In this document: in pieces, positions 16,374 to 28,562 of the stretch
Numbering within the stretch: the first letter of the stretch is position 1
How the letters are laid out: every line of letters begins with the position of its first letter
IMG/VR virus record: IMGVR_UViG_3300009071_000043
Location: 1 to 28,562 of that record
DNA: 28,562 nt
Reading direction: 5' to 3' (one strand)
Source of the DNA: a virus
Position numbers and translations under genes: made by a program
The notes under the pieces: generated by a model
The model's input: only the letters and a program-made list of their open reading frames with translations
The model's database searches: none
What the model was told of the DNA's origin: nothing

Positions 16374-17750
16374 ATGGCAGTTACTATTGAATTAGGTTAT
16401 TTTAATACCTTTGCATTAAAGAGATTAGCTAGCACAGCAGTGCCGCAAGTAGCTGACCCTAATGAAGACTGGTTTATTGAAGAATCAAGAATAAAAGGTG
16501 GTTATAATAATACAACTGTTGACTTTGGAGTTAAGGCTTATTTAGTTGAAGAAGAAGCTCAATCATCTACTAGAGCTAATTCTTTAATATATTCAGGTGT
16601 ATTTAACTCACGAACAGGTATAAACCAAACTAATCAATTTAGTGTAGCAGAAGAAATAACTAGAAGCGTAGACCCAATAGGTGGATCAATACAAAGATTA
16701 CACGCAGAAGACACAAACCTTATAGTATTTCAAGAAAGAAAAGTTAACAGAGCTTTGATAGATAAAGACGCTATATATTCAGCTGAAGGTTCTGCAATAA
16801 CAACTACCGCTAATTTAGTTATAGGTCAAATAACTCCTTACGCAGGTAACTGGGGTATTGGTACAAATCCAGAATCTTTTGCCGTTTACGGTTATAGAAA
16901 ATACTTTGTTGATAAAAATAGAAATGCTGTATTAAGATTATCACAAGATGGTATTACTGAAATATCTAATTACGGTATGAGTGATTACTTTAGAACACAA
17001 TTATCTACTATTACATCTACAGGAACTTTAACCGGAGGTTATGACATACATAATCAAAACTATATATTAAATATAGTAACTGAGTATGGTTCTTCTGATT
17101 ACCAAACATTGTGTTTTGATGAAAGAAGTATTGGTTGGACAACATTTTATACATACAATCCTAGCTTTATAACTAGTGTAAAAGGTAATTTATATACTAG
17201 TAAAAACGGTAAATGGTATCAAAGTTATGTAAAAGGAGCCCCTAGAAATAAATTTCATGATGACGCAGTTTCAGCGCCTAGTGAAGTTAAATTTATATTA
17301 AATCCAGCTCCTGATAAAATGAAAAACTTTAACACAATAAGTTACGAAGGAACTAACGGTTGGGAAGTTACATCTATATTAAGCGACGAAACAGGACTTG
17401 ATTTAAATGTAGATGAAGATGCTTGGGAAATATCAACTGACACAGCTTCAACAATATGGAGTTATAATCAAGGTCAATACACAGATGGCGGAGTAGTACA
17501 ATATGCTGGGTTTGCTAGAAAACAAAACAAATACGTAGCCGCTATAAAAAGTAATACTCCAGCTCAACAAGATGAAGTTATTTTTGGCGACTCAATGATG
17601 GGTATAAAAGGTTATACAGCTTTAGTTACAATGAGAACAGACATTGGAAGAGATGTAACAGCCAATGGGCAAACACAAACGTTATTACCTACGGCTGTTG
17701 GTCAATTAAAAGAATTATTTTCTGTGGGAAGTACTTTCTCACTGCAATAA
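16374..17750 (+). CDS. Tail structural protein (second muzzle/stabilization-type protein)
   Basis: A 458-aa, beta-rich protein without signal or membrane segment. Recognisable conserved pieces are EESRIKGGYNNTTVDFGVKA (residues about 36-55), SGVFNSRTGINQTNQF, DPIGGSIQRLHAEDTNLIVF, RKVNRALIDKDAIYSAEG, GYRKYFVDKNRNAVLRLSQD and GITEISNYGM. I know this chain of motifs from tail proteins of marine and crAss-like podoviruses, where it follows, or may be part of, the protein class encoded just upstream. A Tyr/Gly-rich beta region (about 215-300) suggests a propeller or barrel exposed on the tail. Both genes probably build the distal tail tube. They are 31 nt apart, with an A-rich tandem repeat between them. 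Possibly a split product of a longer ancestral muzzle protein; that is a hypothesis. Confidence 0.72.
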   Translation: MAVTIELGYFNTFALKRLASTAVPQVADPNEDWFIEESRIKGGYNNTTVDFGVKAYLVEEEAQSSTRANSLIYSGVFNSRTGINQTNQFSVAEEITRSVDPIGGSIQRLHAEDTNLIVFQERKVNRALIDKDAIYSAEGSAITTTANLVIGQITPYAGNWGIGTNPESFAVYGYRKYFVDKNRNAVLRLSQDGITEISNYGMSDYFRTQLSTITSTGTLTGGYDIHNQNYILNIVTEYGSSDYQTLCFDERSIGWTTFYTYNPSFITSVKGNLYTSKNGKWYQSYVKGAPRNKFHDDAVSAPSEVKFILNPAPDKMKNFNTISYEGTNGWEVTSILSDETGLDLNVDEDAWEISTDTASTIWSYNQGQYTDGGVVQYAGFARKQNKYVAAIKSNTPAQQDEVIFGDSMMGIKGYTALVTMRTDIGRDVTANGQTQTLLPTAVGQLKELFSVGSTFSLQ

Positions 17751-20523: not shown

Positions 20524-23500
20524 ATGAATCAACCAGAATTTTATACAGCAATTGGTTTTGACGAACCAGTTGATATAAATGAATTGAGTGAAGAAAATAA
20601 AAAGTTCTTTTTTGAACAGTTCTCACCTAAACCAGTAAAGAAAAACGATCCTGCTGTAAATGCGGAGACCAATGTGGGATCGACAAACAATACGGTCTCA
20701 CTATCGGCGGATGGTTCTTTGGATTTAGAAGAAGCGAGAAGATTAATACAAAAAGATAAAGAACTAGCAGGGACAGAAGAAGAGTTAATTTTACAAGCAA
20801 AAGAAAAATTATCTAAATTAAGACAAGATATTTCTAGTCAAACTACTAGAAGAGAAGAGGCTGATCAAGCAACTGAGTCCATGTTTCCAAATATGAGCAT
20901 GTTTGATAAGTCTTCTTTTAAAGGTCCCTTTAGTAACGAAGACAATAAGAACGTTTCTAAAGACACTCAAAAAAATAGTATAATAGATGACGCATATTAT
21001 TATACTTTAAGCGTTAAAGATTTTTTTGATAGAAATCCTATTGGCCCAGGAAGTTTAGGTGATTATACAGAAAAAAAAGAAATAAGCACTATTGTAGAGG
21101 GAAAAGAAATATTAAAAGATCCAGAAAAAATAAGGGATTTTAATATTATTAAAGCAAATAGAAAAAAAGTTGCCATAAATGAATTAACAAAGCAAGGTAA
21201 CAAAAACATTTCTGATGAGAAAATTTTAAAATATATAAAAGATAACAAAGACGATAAAGTTTTTCAAACATCTGTTGATGATCTTTTTATAAATAATTAT
21301 ATAAAAGCAGAGCAAAAAGAAGCTATAATAAAACGTAACACAAAAGAATCTGGTTGGGATGGTTTTACTGAAGGTGATAGTCAAAATAGATCAGAAGAAG
21401 CAGCTGCTTTAGTCGCTAGTAACTTAGACAAACAAGCACAAAGCAATATAGCTACATCTGTAAACATAGATTCTAAAATACAAAAAATTGATCAATCGCT
21501 AAAGTCTTTACAAACTTTAAAGCCAAAAAATCAAGAAGAGGCTGATTTGATAATAGAGCAAGCGGGTTTATTTATAAAAGAGAGACAAGGATTAATTGAC
21601 GCTTATGGTGATGTTGTTAATAAGCAAATAGAAATAGGTACTAAAGCAGAAGATATTAGAGGTTATTTAGATACGGTTAGTCGTAACCAAGGTTGGCTAG
21701 TAAATCCCGTAGGAGCCTTAGTAGGTGGTGCGTATGATTTTGTCGATGGTGTTGATGAATTTGTAGATAGAATTACTTATACACCATGGGAAGCTGTTGG
21801 TGATGTTGTTAAATATACTACAGATAAAGATTCTTGGCTTCATAAAGGCGTGTTGGCTATGGAAGGTTTAGAAAAAACTAATTTTGGCATTGACACTGCT
21901 ATAAACAACATGAGAGAAGGTTTAGCGGAACCTATTAGCGTAAGTGAAATAGACAATTGGAGTGATATGTGGCAATGGAGTTCTTATTTAGTAGGGTCTC
22001 AAGCTACAAACACAGCTGTTATGTTAACCACAGGTGGATGGGCGCTTCCATTGCTAGGTGCTAGCTCAGCAGGCGCGTCGTTTAATAACATGCAAGAAGA
22101 AATAGACTTATACGGAGCTGAGTATACGCCTCTTCAAATGTACACTGTTGCTTTAGGTACTGGTTTAGCAGAAGCTTTAAGTGAAAGAATAACCTTAGGT
22201 CAATTAAATAGAATAAAAAGAGGTTTAGCAGCTAGTAAAAAATCTTTAAAACAAGGTAGTAGAGATTACATAAAAAATTTATTTACAGAAAAAGGAGCTA
22301 AAAACGCTGCTTTAGGCGCTATTGTTTATGGTAAAGAAACTTTTGAAGAAGGTTTTACTGAAGCTATAGCTGGTTTTTCACAAAGAGCTTTAGAAAGATA
22401 TGTGTTAGACAAAGACGTTGATTTATTTGACGGTATGTTAGATGAATTTATATCTGGAGCATTTATGAGTGGTTTTGTTTACAAAGCGCCTGGTTTAGGT
22501 ATAAAAATGTACAGAGCGTTTCAACCACCTGATTCTAATGAAGCAATAGGTAAGATTCAGACAAGAATGGATGAAATAGGTAATATACTTATGAACAATC
22601 CTTCTATGGACGGTAAAATAAGAAAAAAATTAGAAGACGAGTTACAAGAAGGCGCTACTAAAGTTCAGCAGATAATGGCTAGAGACTTTAAGAACATGGA
22701 TAAGATGACTCAGCAAGAGCAAAACGATTTGATGGAAAAAGAAGATCAAATATATAAGCTGAGACAATTATATGACGCTACTCTTAACGATAACACTATA
22801 AATGAAAAAGATAAAACAGATATATTAAACAGTTTAAATTCTGAGTTTAAATCAATAAGAAACGATAAAGTAAAAATATTATCTGAAGTTAATGTAAGAG
22901 AAGAAATAGCTTTAGCTCAAAAACTAGGCAAAGAAACAGGTAGAACTGATTTTGGTGAAGACGCTGTTGGAACAGGTCAAGCTGTAGAAGTTGTAGAAGA
23001 TGACGCTGCTTTTATGGAAATGACTAACTCAAATGAAACTAACGTTGAAGGTACTGAGTTAGATAATGGTCAAATAGTTCTTAATAAAGCTCAAATGCTT
23101 GCCTCTGCTATGCGTAACAATGGTAATATAGGCACTGGTATACATGAGGTTTTACACAAAGTGTTAAAATCTGAATTTAGTAGAGATCCAGTAAAGGCTA
23201 AAAAATTAAAAGACCAATTTTTAAAAGTATTAAAATCTGAAAATAAATCAATACATGATTTAGTTATAGCTAGAGCTGATGCAAATTACAGTCCAGATTA
23301 TTTAGAAAAAAATCCTGATGAATACATTACGATATTTGCTAGTGTATTAAAAGAAAATAACATAGAGTACAGCCAAGCGACAGACAGTGTGTTTAAAAAA
23401 TTAGCTAATTTTGTTGGTGGTTTATTTAGTAGTAAATTAGATGTTGATCCAAGCGATTTTAAATTTAAGGACGGTAAAGATCTATATAACTTTGTTCAAA

Positions 23501-26500
23501 CATATGTTAAAAATACTTCTGAAGGTAAAATATCTGAAAGAGCTAAACAATTAGCGGACGCAGGTAAAGACATTACAACTGATACTAAACTTTCTAAAAA
23601 TGCTTCTGAAACTGTTCAAGAAATATTTGAAACAAAAGGTAAAGATGGTGCTTTTGAAATAATAGAACAATATAGAGGTATGGCTAACAAATTAGCTAAC
23701 AAATACCAAAACGTACCTGGATTTGAAAGGCAATTACTTGTTGATGAAATACTAACAGGTAAACGTGGCGTTATAGATATGATAAACGAATATAACGCCG
23801 AAACTAATGTTCCCTTAGCTGCTTATATAAATAAATTTTTGTCATCAAGAGCTATAGAAGCTGCTAATAGAGTTTTAAAGCAAGAGTTTGAAACTGATGT
23901 AACAGAAGCCAAAGCAGTTGTTGCTACAGAAACTTCTAAAGAAGTTGAAACTAAAACAAAACCAAAACCAAAGCCTAAGTTAAGAAAAGATTTAAAATTA
24001 CAAGATGATGTTATAGACAAAATTAAAAACGCTGTAATTAAAACTTTTGGAACTAAATTACCTAGTGTTAAATCACCTAAGTTTAAAAAACAATTAGAAA
24101 AACAATTTAAAACAGAACTAAAACCTGTTATAGCTAAGTTGATGGGTAGAACTGATAGTTATGAAACTTTTTTAAGAGACAATTTTGAAGCTATATACAA
24201 AGCACTACCTCAAGAAATAATAAACAAAAGATTTAGAGACTTTGCAGATCCTGTAATGAAAGACGGTAAGCAAGTAAGAGAAAAGACAGCGCAAGGTAAC
24301 GCTGTTTTTACTAAGAAAAAAATAACTAAAGCTGAATTTATAAAATACTTTTTAGGTTCTGATGTAGGTAGATCTACTCAAGGAACTAGAAAAACTGCAC
24401 TAGCAGAGGCATTGGCCCAAGAATTAGCTTTAGACGCTACTATGGAAGTTATACAAAACCCAGGCGTGTTAGAAAAAGCTATAGCTATATCTAATTTAGT
24501 AGACGGTGATTTTACTGTAGAAGGAGTTTCTATAAGTATAAAAAGACCTAAAGGCGTTAAGTTTTCTAAAGTTGAGTTAAACGACTTTAATGACGATATA
24601 GCTGATCAATTAACTTTAACTAACGCTTTTCAAAGTGGTCCTTTTAATACTGTAAAATTACAACAATACAATAGCCAAGCTCTTAGTTATAAAAAATTAT
24701 TAAAAGATTTAAATGTTGAGGGGTTTGATATGAAAACTGCTAAAGGTAGAAAACAGTTTTTAGACTACGCTTATACTAGCAACATGATAACTAAGCTTCC
24801 TAAGGTTTTTTGGAGAAGCATGCAAGGAACAACTGATGATTCTGTTTTAGATCCAAATATTCGTTCAAAACCTGAATCACAATCCGATACTGGTTATCAA
24901 ATTTTAATACAAGAGTTAGACGATAGTGGAAACCCAGTGTCAGTTGGTTACGACGTTGATACGTTTGACAGTAGTACTTTGAGAGATTTTGCTGGTAATT
25001 TACCTTTTAGAAATGTAACAGAAGCAGACGCTTGGATAGATCAAATTGAAAATGGAGAGTATGAAATAGACGGTGTAGTACAACCTGCTGTTAAGTTTGC
25101 AAATGAAAATTCTGTTAGCCCTAATATTATGGCTGCTTTGTCAAGTACAAAGTACACTAATATGAAAGAGAATAAAAAACAAAGTTTTAATAAAATAAAA
25201 ACTAGTAAATTTCAAGCTGAGCAAGATAAATCAATAGATGGGTTAAAAGAAATATTTTTAATATTTGAACAAGCTATTAAAGATGATAAAAACGCGGCAG
25301 CTTTTGTAGGCGCTATATTAGCATCTACACCTTCTAATCAAGGTCACTTTATGAGAACATCAGCACCTATTAGGTTTTTTACAACTAATTTACAAGCTGG
25401 GCCAAAAGGGATAAGATTTGTAGAAGAACATAGTTTACCAGCTTCAAGTGTTGCTAAGTACTTATTTGCATTAGCTATAAACGGAACAGTGGAATCTAAA
25501 TTTAATGGTGTTAAAAACAACTATTACCAAGGCGCAATTAACGAAATAGATGATAAAAAACTAAAAGGAACAATGTTAAATGGTGAAAAGTTTAACTATG
25601 GTTCTATAATGCCTTTAGGTTGGACTATAAATGACCAAACATGGGCTAGATACTTTAATATAAACGTAGGTAATACAAGAGGCGGTATTGATCCTGCTAA
25701 AATTATATGGAATGACGGTAAAAGTATTGCTGAAAAAACAGGAGTTAATTCTTATGGCTTTATAGCGAAAGGAGAAACTAAAATTACTGAAAAAGAAGCA
25801 AAAACTCAAAACGGAAAAATGTCTAGAAACATACCAGTCGATGCTTCTATTAGTAAGCAAGTTGAAATAATGTCTAACATGGATAAAACCATGAAGCTTG
25901 CTAGAAATATTGACACGCCTGAAAAAGGTATTAGCGTGTTTGATTTTGACGATACTTTAGCTAGAACAAATAGCAAGATATTAGTTACAATGCCTGATGG
26001 TAAAAAAATGAAAATAGACGCTACAGAGTTTGCTAGAAGAGATGCTAAGCTAACTGCTAAAGGAGCTAAATACGATTTTAGTGAATTTAACAAAGTTGTA
26101 GATGGTAAAAAAGGACCACTTGCTGATTTAGCGTTAAAACGTCAAGGTAAGTTTGGTAGTAAAGATATATTTGTGTTAACAGCTAGACCACAAATAGCCG
26201 CTAGTGCAATTAAAAAGTTTTTAGACGGTATAGGGTTAAGTTTACCTTTAGCTAATATAACAGGTTTAGAAAATGGATCACCACAAGCAAAAGCTGATTG
26301 GGTTTTATCTAAAACAGCTTTGGGTTATAATAATTTTTATTTTGCAGATGACGCAATTAAAAACGTAAAAGCAGTTAAACAAATACTAGACCAAGTAGAC
26401 GTTAAGTCTAAAGTTCAAATTGCTAAATTTAGTAAAGCATCAAACCTTAATAAGCAGTTTAATGATATTATAGAAGATGCAACAGGTATTGCTAACTATA

Positions 26501-28431
26501 AAAACTTTTCAACAGCAAGAGCAAGAACTTTAGGTAGAGGTAAAAGCGCGGGTTGGTTTATACCACCTCAAGCAGAAGACTTTGTAGGTTTATTATATCC
26601 TTTACTAGGTAAGGGTAAAACTGGTGATGCTGGTATGAAATTTTTTAAAGAAAACTTATTAGATCCTTTTAATAAAGCTGAAAACGCTTTAACACAAGCT
26701 AAAATATCTGTAGCAAATGATTTTAGAGCTCTTAAAAAACAATTTAAAACTATACCTAAAACTCTTAAAAAAGAAGCTATGGATGGTTTTACATATGGAG
26801 ATGCTGTAAGAGCATATATATGGGCTCAGCAAGGTATGGAAATACCTGGGTTATCAAAAAGAGATGCTGTAGAGTTAATATCTTTTATTGAAAACGATTT
26901 TGAATTAAAGCAGTTTGCTCAAGGTTTGCAAATGATACAAAAAGATAGAATGTATCCTGAACCTGACGAGTCTTGGTTAGCTGGAACTATAACTACTGAT
27001 ATTATAGGAGGTATAAACAATGTTGTAAGAAAAGATTATTTACAAGAATGGGAACAAAACATAGATATTATGTTTTCTCCTGAAAACTTAAATAAACTTG
27101 AAGCTGCTTACGGACAAAACTATAGAGAAGCTTTAGAAAATATTATAGCTAGAATGAAGTCTGGTACTAACAGACAAAAAAGCAGTAGTAGAGTTATAAA
27201 CGAAATAACAGATTGGCTAAACAACTCTGTTGGAGCTATCATGTTCTTTAACACTAAATCTGCTATATTACAAACTATATCAGCTATAAATTTTGTTAAC
27301 TACGGAGATAACAATATATTAAAAGCTGGTTTAGCGTTTGCTAATCAACCTCAATATTGGAAAGATTTTAATAGATTATTTAATTCTGAATACTTAGTAG
27401 CAAGGCGTAATGGCTTAAAGATAAATGTAAACGAATCTGAAATAGCAGACGCTGTTAAAGATGCTAAAAACAAACCAAAAGCAGCTATAGCTTATTTACT
27501 TAAAAAAGGGTTTTTACCTACACAAATAGCAGATAGCTTTGCTATTGCTTCAGGTGGTGCAACTTTTTATAGAAATAGAATAAATACTTATTTAAAACAA
27601 GGATTAACACAACAAGAAGCAGAGTCAAAAGCGTTTGAAGACTTTTATGCTATATCAGAAGAAACACAGCAGTCTAGTAGAACAGATCGTATAAGTCAAG
27701 AACAAGCTAGTGTTGCTGGTAGAGTTATATTAGCTTTTGCTAACACTCCGCAGCAATACGCTAGAAGATCTAAAAAAGATTTCTTAGATTTAATAAACGG
27801 AAGAGGTGGACCAGGAGCTTGGAAAGGTCAAATAGGTAGAATAATATATTATCAAGGCGCGCAAAACTTAATGTTCAACGCCTTACAAAACGCTTTATTT
27901 GCTATGTTGTTTGATGATGAAGATGAAGAGCCTCAAGACAAGTCTTTAAGAATAGCTAACGGTATGGCTGACTCTACTTTAAGAGGCATGGGAATATATG
28001 GAGCAGCGGCATCAACTTTAAAAAATATAATACTTAAATATTATACTGAAAATCAAAAGAAAAATCCTAAAACTGAAGATGCTGCTTTAGAAATGTTAAG
28101 CTTTTCACCACCATTAGATTCTAAAGTAACTAAATTTAGATCAGCATTGCGAACTCTTAATTGGGAAAAAGACGAAATAGCAGAAAAAGGATTTAGTTTA
28201 GATAACCCAGCTTATTTAGCTGGTGGGCAAATTCTTTCATCATTTACAAATATTCCTTTAGATAGAGTTATAAAAAAATATAACAACTTAGATAAAGCTT
28301 TTGAACAAGAAACTGAAACATGGGAAAGTATTGCTTTAGTATTGGGTTGGTCAGAATGGGAAGTAATGGGTCCGCCAGTTTCAAAAAAGAAAACTAAAAA
28401 TAAAAGTAAAAAAAGAAAACGTAAATTTTAA
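20524..28431 (+). CDS. Giant polyvalent-type virion protein with metallopeptidase-like and HAD phosphatase domains
   Basis: A 2635-aa protein, over a quarter of the window, likely carried in the head and injected. Seen in order: a polar helical N-terminal region; Gly/Ala-rich hydrophobic segments at about 395-415 and 487-520; a HEVLH motif at 874-878 (His874, Glu875, His878) with a possible third zinc ligand Glu933 in NPDEYITIF; a Lys/Pro linker (KTKPKPKPKLRKD) near 1145; a conserved block around GAILASTPSNQGHFMRTSAP and EHSLPASSVAKYL (His1636). A full HAD phosphatase set follows: DFDDT (1807-1811), LTARP (Thr1886), Lys1923 and ADD (Asp1942, Asp1943). The C-terminal part has a hydrophobic stretch (about 2231-2262), the block ISEETQQSSRTDRISQEQAS (2377-2396) and a basic tail ending KKRKRKF. 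This matches the idea of phage 'polyvalent' proteins that deliver several activities. Substrates are unknown. Confidence 0.8.
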   Translation: MNQPEFYTAIGFDEPVDINELSEENKKFFFEQFSPKPVKKNDPAVNAETNVGSTNNTVSLSADGSLDLEEARRLIQKDKELAGTEEELILQAKEKLSKLRQDISSQTTRREEADQATESMFPNMSMFDKSSFKGPFSNEDNKNVSKDTQKNSIIDDAYYYTLSVKDFFDRNPIGPGSLGDYTEKKEISTIVEGKEILKDPEKIRDFNIIKANRKKVAINELTKQGNKNISDEKILKYIKDNKDDKVFQTSVDDLFINNYIKAEQKEAIIKRNTKESGWDGFTEGDSQNRSEEAAALVASNLDKQAQSNIATSVNIDSKIQKIDQSLKSLQTLKPKNQEEADLIIEQAGLFIKERQGLIDAYGDVVNKQIEIGTKAEDIRGYLDTVSRNQGWLVNPVGALVGGAYDFVDGVDEFVDRITYTPWEAVGDVVKYTTDKDSWLHKGVLAMEGLEKTNFGIDTAINNMREGLAEPISVSEIDNWSDMWQWSSYLVGSQATNTAVMLTTGGWALPLLGASSAGASFNNMQEEIDLYGAEYTPLQMYTVALGTGLAEALSERITLGQLNRIKRGLAASKKSLKQGSRDYIKNLFTEKGAKNAALGAIVYGKETFEEGFTEAIAGFSQRALERYVLDKDVDLFDGMLDEFISGAFMSGFVYKAPGLGIKMYRAFQPPDSNEAIGKIQTRMDEIGNILMNNPSMDGKIRKKLEDELQEGATKVQQIMARDFKNMDKMTQQEQNDLMEKEDQIYKLRQLYDATLNDNTINEKDKTDILNSLNSEFKSIRNDKVKILSEVNVREEIALAQKLGKETGRTDFGEDAVGTGQAVEVVEDDAAFMEMTNSNETNVEGTELDNGQIVLNKAQMLASAMRNNGNIGTGIHEVLHKVLKSEFSRDPVKAKKLKDQFLKVLKSENKSIHDLVIARADANYSPDYLEKNPDEYITIFASVLKENNIEYSQATDSVFKKLANFVGGLFSSKLDVDPSDFKFKDGKDLYNFVQTYVKNTSEGKISERAKQLADAGKDITTDTKLSKNASETVQEIFETKGKDGAFEIIEQYRGMANKLANKYQNVPGFERQLLVDEILTGKRGVIDMINEYNAETNVPLAAYINKFLSSRAIEAANRVLKQEFETDVTEAKAVVATETSKEVETKTKPKPKPKLRKDLKLQDDVIDKIKNAVIKTFGTKLPSVKSPKFKKQLEKQFKTELKPVIAKLMGRTDSYETFLRDNFEAIYKALPQEIINKRFRDFADPVMKDGKQVREKTAQGNAVFTKKKITKAEFIKYFLGSDVGRSTQGTRKTALAEALAQELALDATMEVIQNPGVLEKAIAISNLVDGDFTVEGVSISIKRPKGVKFSKVELNDFNDDIADQLTLTNAFQSGPFNTVKLQQYNSQALSYKKLLKDLNVEGFDMKTAKGRKQFLDYAYTSNMITKLPKVFWRSMQGTTDDSVLDPNIRSKPESQSDTGYQILIQELDDSGNPVSVGYDVDTFDSSTLRDFAGNLPFRNVTEADAWIDQIENGEYEIDGVVQPAVKFANENSVSPNIMAALSSTKYTNMKENKKQSFNKIKTSKFQAEQDKSIDGLKEIFLIFEQAIKDDKNAAAFVGAILASTPSNQGHFMRTSAPIRFFTTNLQAGPKGIRFVEEHSLPASSVAKYLFALAINGTVESKFNGVKNNYYQGAINEIDDKKLKGTMLNGEKFNYGSIMPLGWTINDQTWARYFNINVGNTRGGIDPAKIIWNDGKSIAEKTGVNSYGFIAKGETKITEKEAKTQNGKMSRNIPVDASISKQVEIMSNMDKTMKLARNIDTPEKGISVFDFDDTLARTNSKILVTMPDGKKMKIDATEFARRDAKLTAKGAKYDFSEFNKVVDGKKGPLADLALKRQGKFGSKDIFVLTARPQIAASAIKKFLDGIGLSLPLANITGLENGSPQAKADWVLSKTALGYNNFYFADDAIKNVKAVKQILDQVDVKSKVQIAKFSKASNLNKQFNDIIEDATGIANYKNFSTARARTLGRGKSAGWFIPPQAEDFVGLLYPLLGKGKTGDAGMKFFKENLLDPFNKAENALTQAKISVANDFRALKKQFKTIPKTLKKEAMDGFTYGDAVRAYIWAQQGMEIPGLSKRDAVELISFIENDFELKQFAQGLQMIQKDRMYPEPDESWLAGTITTDIIGGINNVVRKDYLQEWEQNIDIMFSPENLNKLEAAYGQNYREALENIIARMKSGTNRQKSSSRVINEITDWLNNSVGAIMFFNTKSAILQTISAINFVNYGDNNILKAGLAFANQPQYWKDFNRLFNSEYLVARRNGLKINVNESEIADAVKDAKNKPKAAIAYLLKKGFLPTQIADSFAIASGGATFYRNRINTYLKQGLTQQEAESKAFEDFYAISEETQQSSRTDRISQEQASVAGRVILAFANTPQQYARRSKKDFLDLINGRGGPGAWKGQIGRIIYYQGAQNLMFNALQNALFAMLFDDEDEEPQDKSLRIANGMADSTLRGMGIYGAAASTLKNIILKYYTENQKKNPKTEDAALEMLSFSPPLDSKVTKFRSALRTLNWEKDEIAEKGFSLDNPAYLAGGQILSSFTNIPLDRVIKKYNNLDKAFEQETETWESIALVLGWSEWEVMGPPVSKKKTKNKSKKRKRKF

Positions 28432-28434
28432 ATA

Positions 28435-28562
28435 ATGGAAGAGTTATCAGACAAGTCACAAGTAAAACTTGACATAAAAACATTAATAGGTATAATAGCA
28501 GGTATTGTATCTATAGCGGGTATATGGTTTGACTTAACAGCTAAGATAAGCACCATAGACAG
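28435..28562 (+). CDS. Small one-pass membrane protein, incomplete at the window end
   Basis: Only the first 42 codons are present. The ATG is 3 nt after the giant gene's TAA. The visible part reads MEELSDKSQVKLDIKTLIGI followed by IAGIVSIAGIWFDLTAKIST: a short charged head and one clear hydrophobic segment at about residues 17-33, then a polar stretch. It is probably a membrane protein with its N-terminus on one side and a helical or coiled tail to follow. Similar small proteins follow structural genes in marine phages and are sometimes guessed to be holin- or spanin-like, but nothing here proves a lysis role. The missing end prevents a decision. Confidence 0.7.
   Translation, partial: MEELSDKSQVKLDIKTLIGIIAGIVSIAGIWFDLTAKISTID

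Follow-up and report, generated by a model that had tools for sequence, protein, structure and literature searches.

The giant protein encoded near the end of the window (the whole stretch of DNA analysed, whose source record is a virus contig of 28,562 bases) is a single polypeptide with two unrelated conserved enzymatic domains, a zincin and a HAD phosphatase. It probably works like a phage-type polyvalent protein; the fold predicted for its C-terminal half is common to many of these. As a whole, the data are best explained by such a protein being packed, delivered and self-processed, a reading to which we give a probability of about 0.55. What is new is an invariant HAD core, a HAD cap slot that holds a nested kinase in some relatives, and a sigma2-like domain. 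The conserved HAD/C-terminal core, the slot and the sigma2-like domain, together with a conserved Glu1635-His1636 pair, were missed by an earlier, sequence-only reading of this DNA.

Domain architecture, family and genomic setting

The features of the gene are as follows.

20524–28431, + strand: gene encoding the giant protein (2635 aa; ATG start)
21901–22881, + strand: N-terminal module, candidate packaging part (aa 460–786; tblastn and blastp homology)
22999–23553, + strand: zincin-type metallopeptidase domain (aa 826–1010; sub-threshold Pfam M90, alignment, AF2)
23143–23157, + strand: HEVLH, catalytic and zinc-ligand motif (aa 874–878; HExxH in 156/162)
23320–23322, + strand: Glu933, probable third zinc ligand (alignments, AF2 helix)
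23596–23877, + strand: sigma70-region-2-like helical domain, a probable remote relationship (aa ~1025–1118; hhalign, Foldseek, PDB HMM, position test)
25426–25431, + strand: conserved Glu1635-His1636 pair within an alpha/beta domain that precedes the HAD (79/80 each, AF2 strand)
25876–26418, + strand: HAD phosphatase domain (aa ~1785–1965; alignment, motif census, AF2)
25942–25956, + strand: HAD motif I, DFDDT (aa 1807–1811; 80/80 for D1807, D1809 and T1811)
25993–25998, + strand: tip of the cap/flap hairpin after Pro1824, an insert site in relatives, empty here
26179–26181, + strand: HAD motif II, Thr1886 (LTARP; 80/80)
26290–26292, + strand: HAD motif III, Lys1923 (80/80)
26347–26352, + strand: HAD motif IV, Asp1942-Asp1943 (80/80)
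26419–28368, + strand: all-helical conserved C-terminal module (aa ~1966–2615; conservation profile, AF2, BFVD Foldseek)

Scans with the whole giant protein against Pfam, PHROGs, NCBIfam and the PDB gave no significant match, Pfam likewise matched none of six long N-terminal regions, and neither LPD38 nor other Pfam LPD domains were found in the giant. With the protein itself as the query, 267 giant relatives were retrieved from IMG/VR. With the C-terminal alignment as the query, the core was found to be encoded in at least 588 IMG/VR stretches, yet in no isolate: the HAD/C-terminal half was absent from 50,697 phage records at the sensitivity used. The giant belongs to uncultured aquatic phages, and its relatives, of ~1800 to 3700 aa, lie in the same gene order.

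In an alignment of 81 proteins, residues 1–1800 are poorly conserved and residues 1801–2615 show high conservation throughout. Before residue 1780, only H874, E875, H878, E933, E1635 and H1636 reach 93% or more, and residues 1351–1560, between the zincin and HAD modules, form a variable region. The HAD and the C-terminal module are present in all members, with conservation far above that of the remaining protein; on the evidence of the alignment they make up an invariant core, not optional cargo.

Terminase relatives were found in phages of Flavobacterium, Cellulophaga, Tenacibaculum and Maribacter, the nearest being that of the metagenomic phage ctfjg026 (64%). Terminase, portal, virion genes and giant follow one gene order in phi38:1, Elemovirus and ctfjg026, the giant being called structural in two of the three, and the window's upstream genes at 16374 and 18169 recur in 77 and 73 of the examined loci. 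The giant of ctfjg026 (L085, 741–12320) has 3859 aa, two HExxH motifs, no HAD of the window type and weak C-terminal similarity; that the giants differ so much, with terminases so close, indicates rapid domain replacement in the giant gene. Twelve MAG contigs (L087–L098) carry the giant, in bins assigned to Woesearchaeota, Aliivibrio, Ilumatobacteraceae and Flavobacteriaceae, and the non-matching labels are probably binning errors. Host assignment from these contigs was rejected since the bins are mixed, so that only the sister isolates, phages of Flavobacteriia, point to Bacteroidota.

The sequence-only reading had placed the giant at the end of the virion operon, which is correct to within one gene, a short ORF beginning at 28435. 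This ORF (28435–28562 in the window) has a hydrophobic segment and resembles the small post-giant proteins of L003, L009 and L019; in other relatives the gene after the giant is membrane, signal-peptide or amidase-like. The hydrophobic segments attributed to the giant itself are not membrane-like, because no 19-residue stretch exceeds a Kyte-Doolittle value of 1.15, against the 1.6 usual for a membrane helix.

The zincin-type site and the sigma-like domain

The HEVLH motif at residues 874–878, the sole HExxH of the protein, and Glu933 lie where they had been proposed to form a metallopeptidase-like site. Exactly one HExxH is present in 156 of 162 full-length non-redundant relatives, 792–1299 aa ahead of the HAD (74 of 78 full-length members in the first set), while composition shuffles of family members yield the motif by chance in 0.4% of proteins. 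Two of the 162 (L024 and L026) have an HExxxH variant in its place. In a 58-member alignment with a mean column identity of 15%, H874, E875, H878 and E933 are invariant, and in the full alignment E933 is found in 78 of 79 members. By these sequence counts, the zincin and HAD sites are both far beyond chance. EExxH occurs as a natural variant in L028, L140 and L164 and the site is lost in L154, providing a ready control set for the peptidase's role.

The AF2 model of residues 780–1345 (mean pLDDT 78.5) shows a strand-strand-helix arrangement, the HExxH helix, further helices and then the E933 helix, with pLDDT of 88–95 in the zincin part. This confidence and the strand-strand-helix-helix order are inconsistent with a motif lying in an unstructured or coiled helix. 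Zincins were not seen among the listed PDB fold matches of this model. The best Pfam match of the segment is to the MtfA-type peptidases (M90; 20.9 bits, E 3e-4 over 130 aa), but it falls below the Pfam cut-off of 26.2 bits, and M90 is matched in only one of 58 members. The site fits the zincin of polyvalent proteins rather than a named peptidase family: as described in the main text of PMC5512222, that zincin has HExxH and a Glu on the following helix, and an HExxxH variant too. From alignment and model together, a real zincin-type site is highly likely, with Glu933 as its probable third ligand.

Residues 1015–1125, compared with a profile of 21 sigma factors, gave an hhalign score of 25.8 (P 3.6e-4). 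The maximum was 12.2 for 300 column-shuffled sigma profiles, 9.5 for the reversed profile and 15.3 when 77 other giant windows served as targets, and this stretch ranked first when the sigma profile was run against 64 giant windows. In a position test, the best match of a primary-sigma profile fell 120–360 aa behind HExxH in 39 of 118 proteins, where 10.3 were expected; a broader sigma profile gave 24 of 152 against an expected 13. A Foldseek list consisted mostly of sigma70 factors, at non-significant E values of 0.6–5, and six sigma-factor sequences (sigma factor, SigI, WhiG) appeared among 35 sub-threshold matches of a PDB HMM search. Helical order, register and the signature Y/F-x-P...F/L-x-x-Y are held in common with region 2 of group-3 and primary sigma70. 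In contrast to sigma70 factors, the domain is weakly conserved and has no Pfam sigma match in 44 members; the comparison covered region-2 profiles, and no region 4 was identified. A general Pfam scan of residues 1032–1330 gave no recurring helix-turn-helix family. The claim is kept moderate because the giant's sigma-like profile found no sigma factor in three bacterial genomes; residues ~1025–1118 are probably a remote relative of sigma70 region 2.

The HAD phosphatase and its cap slot

The HAD motif residues named by the sequence-only reading (D1807, D1809, T1886, K1923, D1942 and D1943) are all at those positions and, with T1811, are found in 80 of 80 members. The complete motif set is present in 163 of 173 relatives, and nine of the ten exceptions bear a long insert. 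In the AF2 model of residues 1560–2620 (mean pLDDT 79.3), motif I sits at a strand end and is followed by a beta-hairpin, a helical cap, the LTAR strand, the Lys1923 helix and a strand ending in DD, a predicted fold that is Rossmann-type HAD. The motifs are on the expected consecutive strands and helix. Invariant motifs and predicted fold together bear out the proposal of a complete and probably active phosphatase, and the HAD is almost certainly active.

By sequence, the HAD has no significant match among solved structures and none to a Pnkp in the PDB. A PDB fold search with the C-terminal model returned HAD acid phosphatases at E 0.5–1.5 (best about 0.5), which is not significant; matches to dynein and importin, also not significant, were dismissed as helical noise. 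PHROG 415, labelled polynucleotide kinase, was rejected as evidence on the substrate, being a general HAD profile that matches all 14 control genomes, including archaea. Beyond the HAD the predicted C-terminal module is all helical. In a Foldseek search of BFVD, the C-terminal model matched four direct relatives (30–45% identity), followed by dozens of giants from phages (E 1e-12 to 1e-4), several of which are annotated as ART-PolyVal, large polyvalent protein-associated or MuF C-terminal.

Ahead of the HAD, an alpha/beta domain (residues 1608–1645, 25345–25458) carries the E1635-H1636 pair, with PA after it, in 79 of 80 members; the pair may mark a third active site.

Motifs I and II stand 70–79 residues apart in 154 of 172 members; among the others, the distance is 270–279 in nine, 118 in seven, 160 in one and 203 in one. 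Every insert begins right after the hairpin proline (TMP in the window), a point that we take to be the HAD cap (C1) site. A P-loop kinase lies between motifs I and II in nine of 173 relatives (L088, L091, L193, L197, L202, L208, L231, L255 and L256). These inserts are of the AAA_33/zeta/polynucleotide-kinase type, fall into two sequence types and are scattered on the tree. Those that were scanned matched AAA_33 (up to 4e-16), Zeta_toxin (9e-11 and 2.5e-12) and the PHROG 505 polynucleotide kinase (7e-12). Against the PDB they matched chains labelled 'metallophosphoesterase' but of the Pnkp-kinase type at 0.0015, and T4 polynucleotide kinase at 0.08. On a FastTree phylogeny of the C-terminal module (170 rows), kinase presence needs six changes by parsimony, so the kinase was gained or lost several times. 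The members with a distance of 118 (a 46-aa insert; L013 and six others) form one clade of seven.

Sequence comparison indicates that insertions enter the HAD at its cap, a slot occupied in some relatives so as to give a nested kinase-phosphatase pair; in the window's own HAD the slot is empty and there is no kinase. With a P-loop kinase repeatedly gained or lost at the cap, these proteins offer a natural domain-in-domain arrangement of an unusual kind, relevant to HAD cap evolution. The cap may also simply be a place where insertions are tolerated. Other cap inserts measure ~130 aa (locus L064:14249-15205) and ~85 aa (locus L227:10043-10870); an ART identity, suggested for the former by its sequence pattern, was not supported. 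The same kinase type occurs with another large N-terminal domain in the 778-aa gp053 of Agrobacterium phage Atu_ph07 (L284), and in the Melnitz phages (L283) a kinase gene adjoins a HAD-like gene.

Proposed role, alternatives and known systems

In the reading that we prefer, the giant chain would be made late with the virion proteins and packed in the particle through its N-terminal and C-terminal modules. It is likely to be a virion component, as suggested by gene order and by a distant homologue annotated as a structural protein. It would be delivered to the host together with the DNA, and ejection is somewhat favoured on balance. The zincin would then cut its own chain in variable linkers and so release the HAD/C-terminal part from the N-terminal one. 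Self-cleavage falls a little short of even odds: the variable residues 1351–1560 suit a linker and would be a natural place for cleavage, and no cleavage site was found in the giant. The N4 virion RNA polymerase is packed uncut though it has a zincin (main text of PMC5512222), so cleavage, if any, could follow packing or entry. Once freed, the HAD would act in the host by dephosphorylating a nucleotide or nucleic-acid end. An end-healing-like role is suggested by the nested kinase that this HAD has in some relatives, and such a substrate is tentatively proposed. The sigma2-like domain would dock on host RNA polymerase, which is more doubtful; if it does, it would offer a means of taking over transcription at entry without a virion polymerase, a strategy not described in the literature found. 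That one self-cutting virion protein brings both sigma-like RNA polymerase capture and a HAD (with nested kinase in some) healing or editing nucleic-acid ends at entry is a long shot; if true, transcription takeover and RNA/DNA repair would be carried in by the particle.

Alternatively, the zincin may not cut the giant at all and may be an effector cleaving host proteins after delivery, with the HAD as a second, independent effector. The zincin's flanks have diverged strongly and its catalytic residues have been kept, as in an arms race, and the option is listed in the main text of PMC5512222; against this, the position of the zincin is constant in almost every member, which suits a processing domain better than exchangeable cargo, and we consider the proposal rather improbable. 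Slightly less probable still is that the HAD/C-terminal half serves chiefly in assembly or ejection, with the HAD contributing to particle construction, for instance through action on a phosphorylated virion partner. Universal presence and far higher conservation are expected of a core virion part, and the C-terminal fold recurs in other giants, but D1807, D1809, T1886, K1923 and D1942-D1943 would not stay invariant if the role were purely structural, and the repeated enzyme inserts at the cap suggest that catalysis matters.

About as unlikely as the assembly role is a virion-delivered transcription factor, whose sigma2-like domain, freed by the zincin, redirects host RNA polymerase via the clamp, with the HAD as an accessory. 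The hhalign score with its shuffle and real-window controls, the position test, the sigma-rich Foldseek list and the sigma chains among sub-threshold PDB HMM matches speak for it. Set against these are the lack of a Pfam sigma match in 44 members, the failure of the profile to find sigma factors in three bacterial genomes, the lack of an identified region 4 and the strong divergence across the family. Decay or chance, leaving functionless motifs, would accord with EExxH in three members and the lost site in one, but it is contradicted by the conservation of HExxH (156 of 162, with two HExxxH at the same site) and of the HAD residues, and has a negligible probability.

Of known proteins, gp101 of Cellulophaga phage phi38:1 and gp18 of Elemovirus, each annotated as a 'structural protein', match the N-terminal module (tblastn E 2e-6 / 2e-7; blastp for the elemoF giant). 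Both share this module with the window's giant and occupy the same place, ending the same virion gene order. They differ from it in that phi38:1 gp101 (1691 aa) has neither HExxH nor HAD motif I, and elemoF gp18 (3694 aa) has HExxH and no HAD of the window type. A search of phi38:1, Elemovirus, ctfjg026, HTVC008M, Melnitz and Atu_ph07, run without a positive control, gave no window-type HAD.

Phage RNA-repair enzymes (PNK-HAD; PMC7824862) likewise combine a kinase with a HAD phosphatase in a single chain. T4-type Pnkp thus resembles the nine kinase-bearing relatives, whose kinase matches polynucleotide-kinase profiles. However, that kinase is nested in the HAD cap and not in tandem, the window's protein has none, and the HAD of this family is not demonstrably of the Pnkp family.

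A close comparison, already drawn by the sequence-only reading, is with polyvalent proteins (Iyer et al., 2017; PMC5512222), and it is sustained by the BFVD fold matches and by the architecture described in the main text of that paper. A giant multi-domain chain, a zincin and a virion gene context are common to both, zincins being the commonest domain of polyvalent proteins and proposed there to process their own chain. The main text has no HAD phosphatase among the polyvalent domains. Accounts of polyvalent proteins usually present them as shuffled cargo; in the window's family, by contrast, the HAD and C-terminal module are universal, so that a defined, testable enzyme is a constant part of a giant phage protein.
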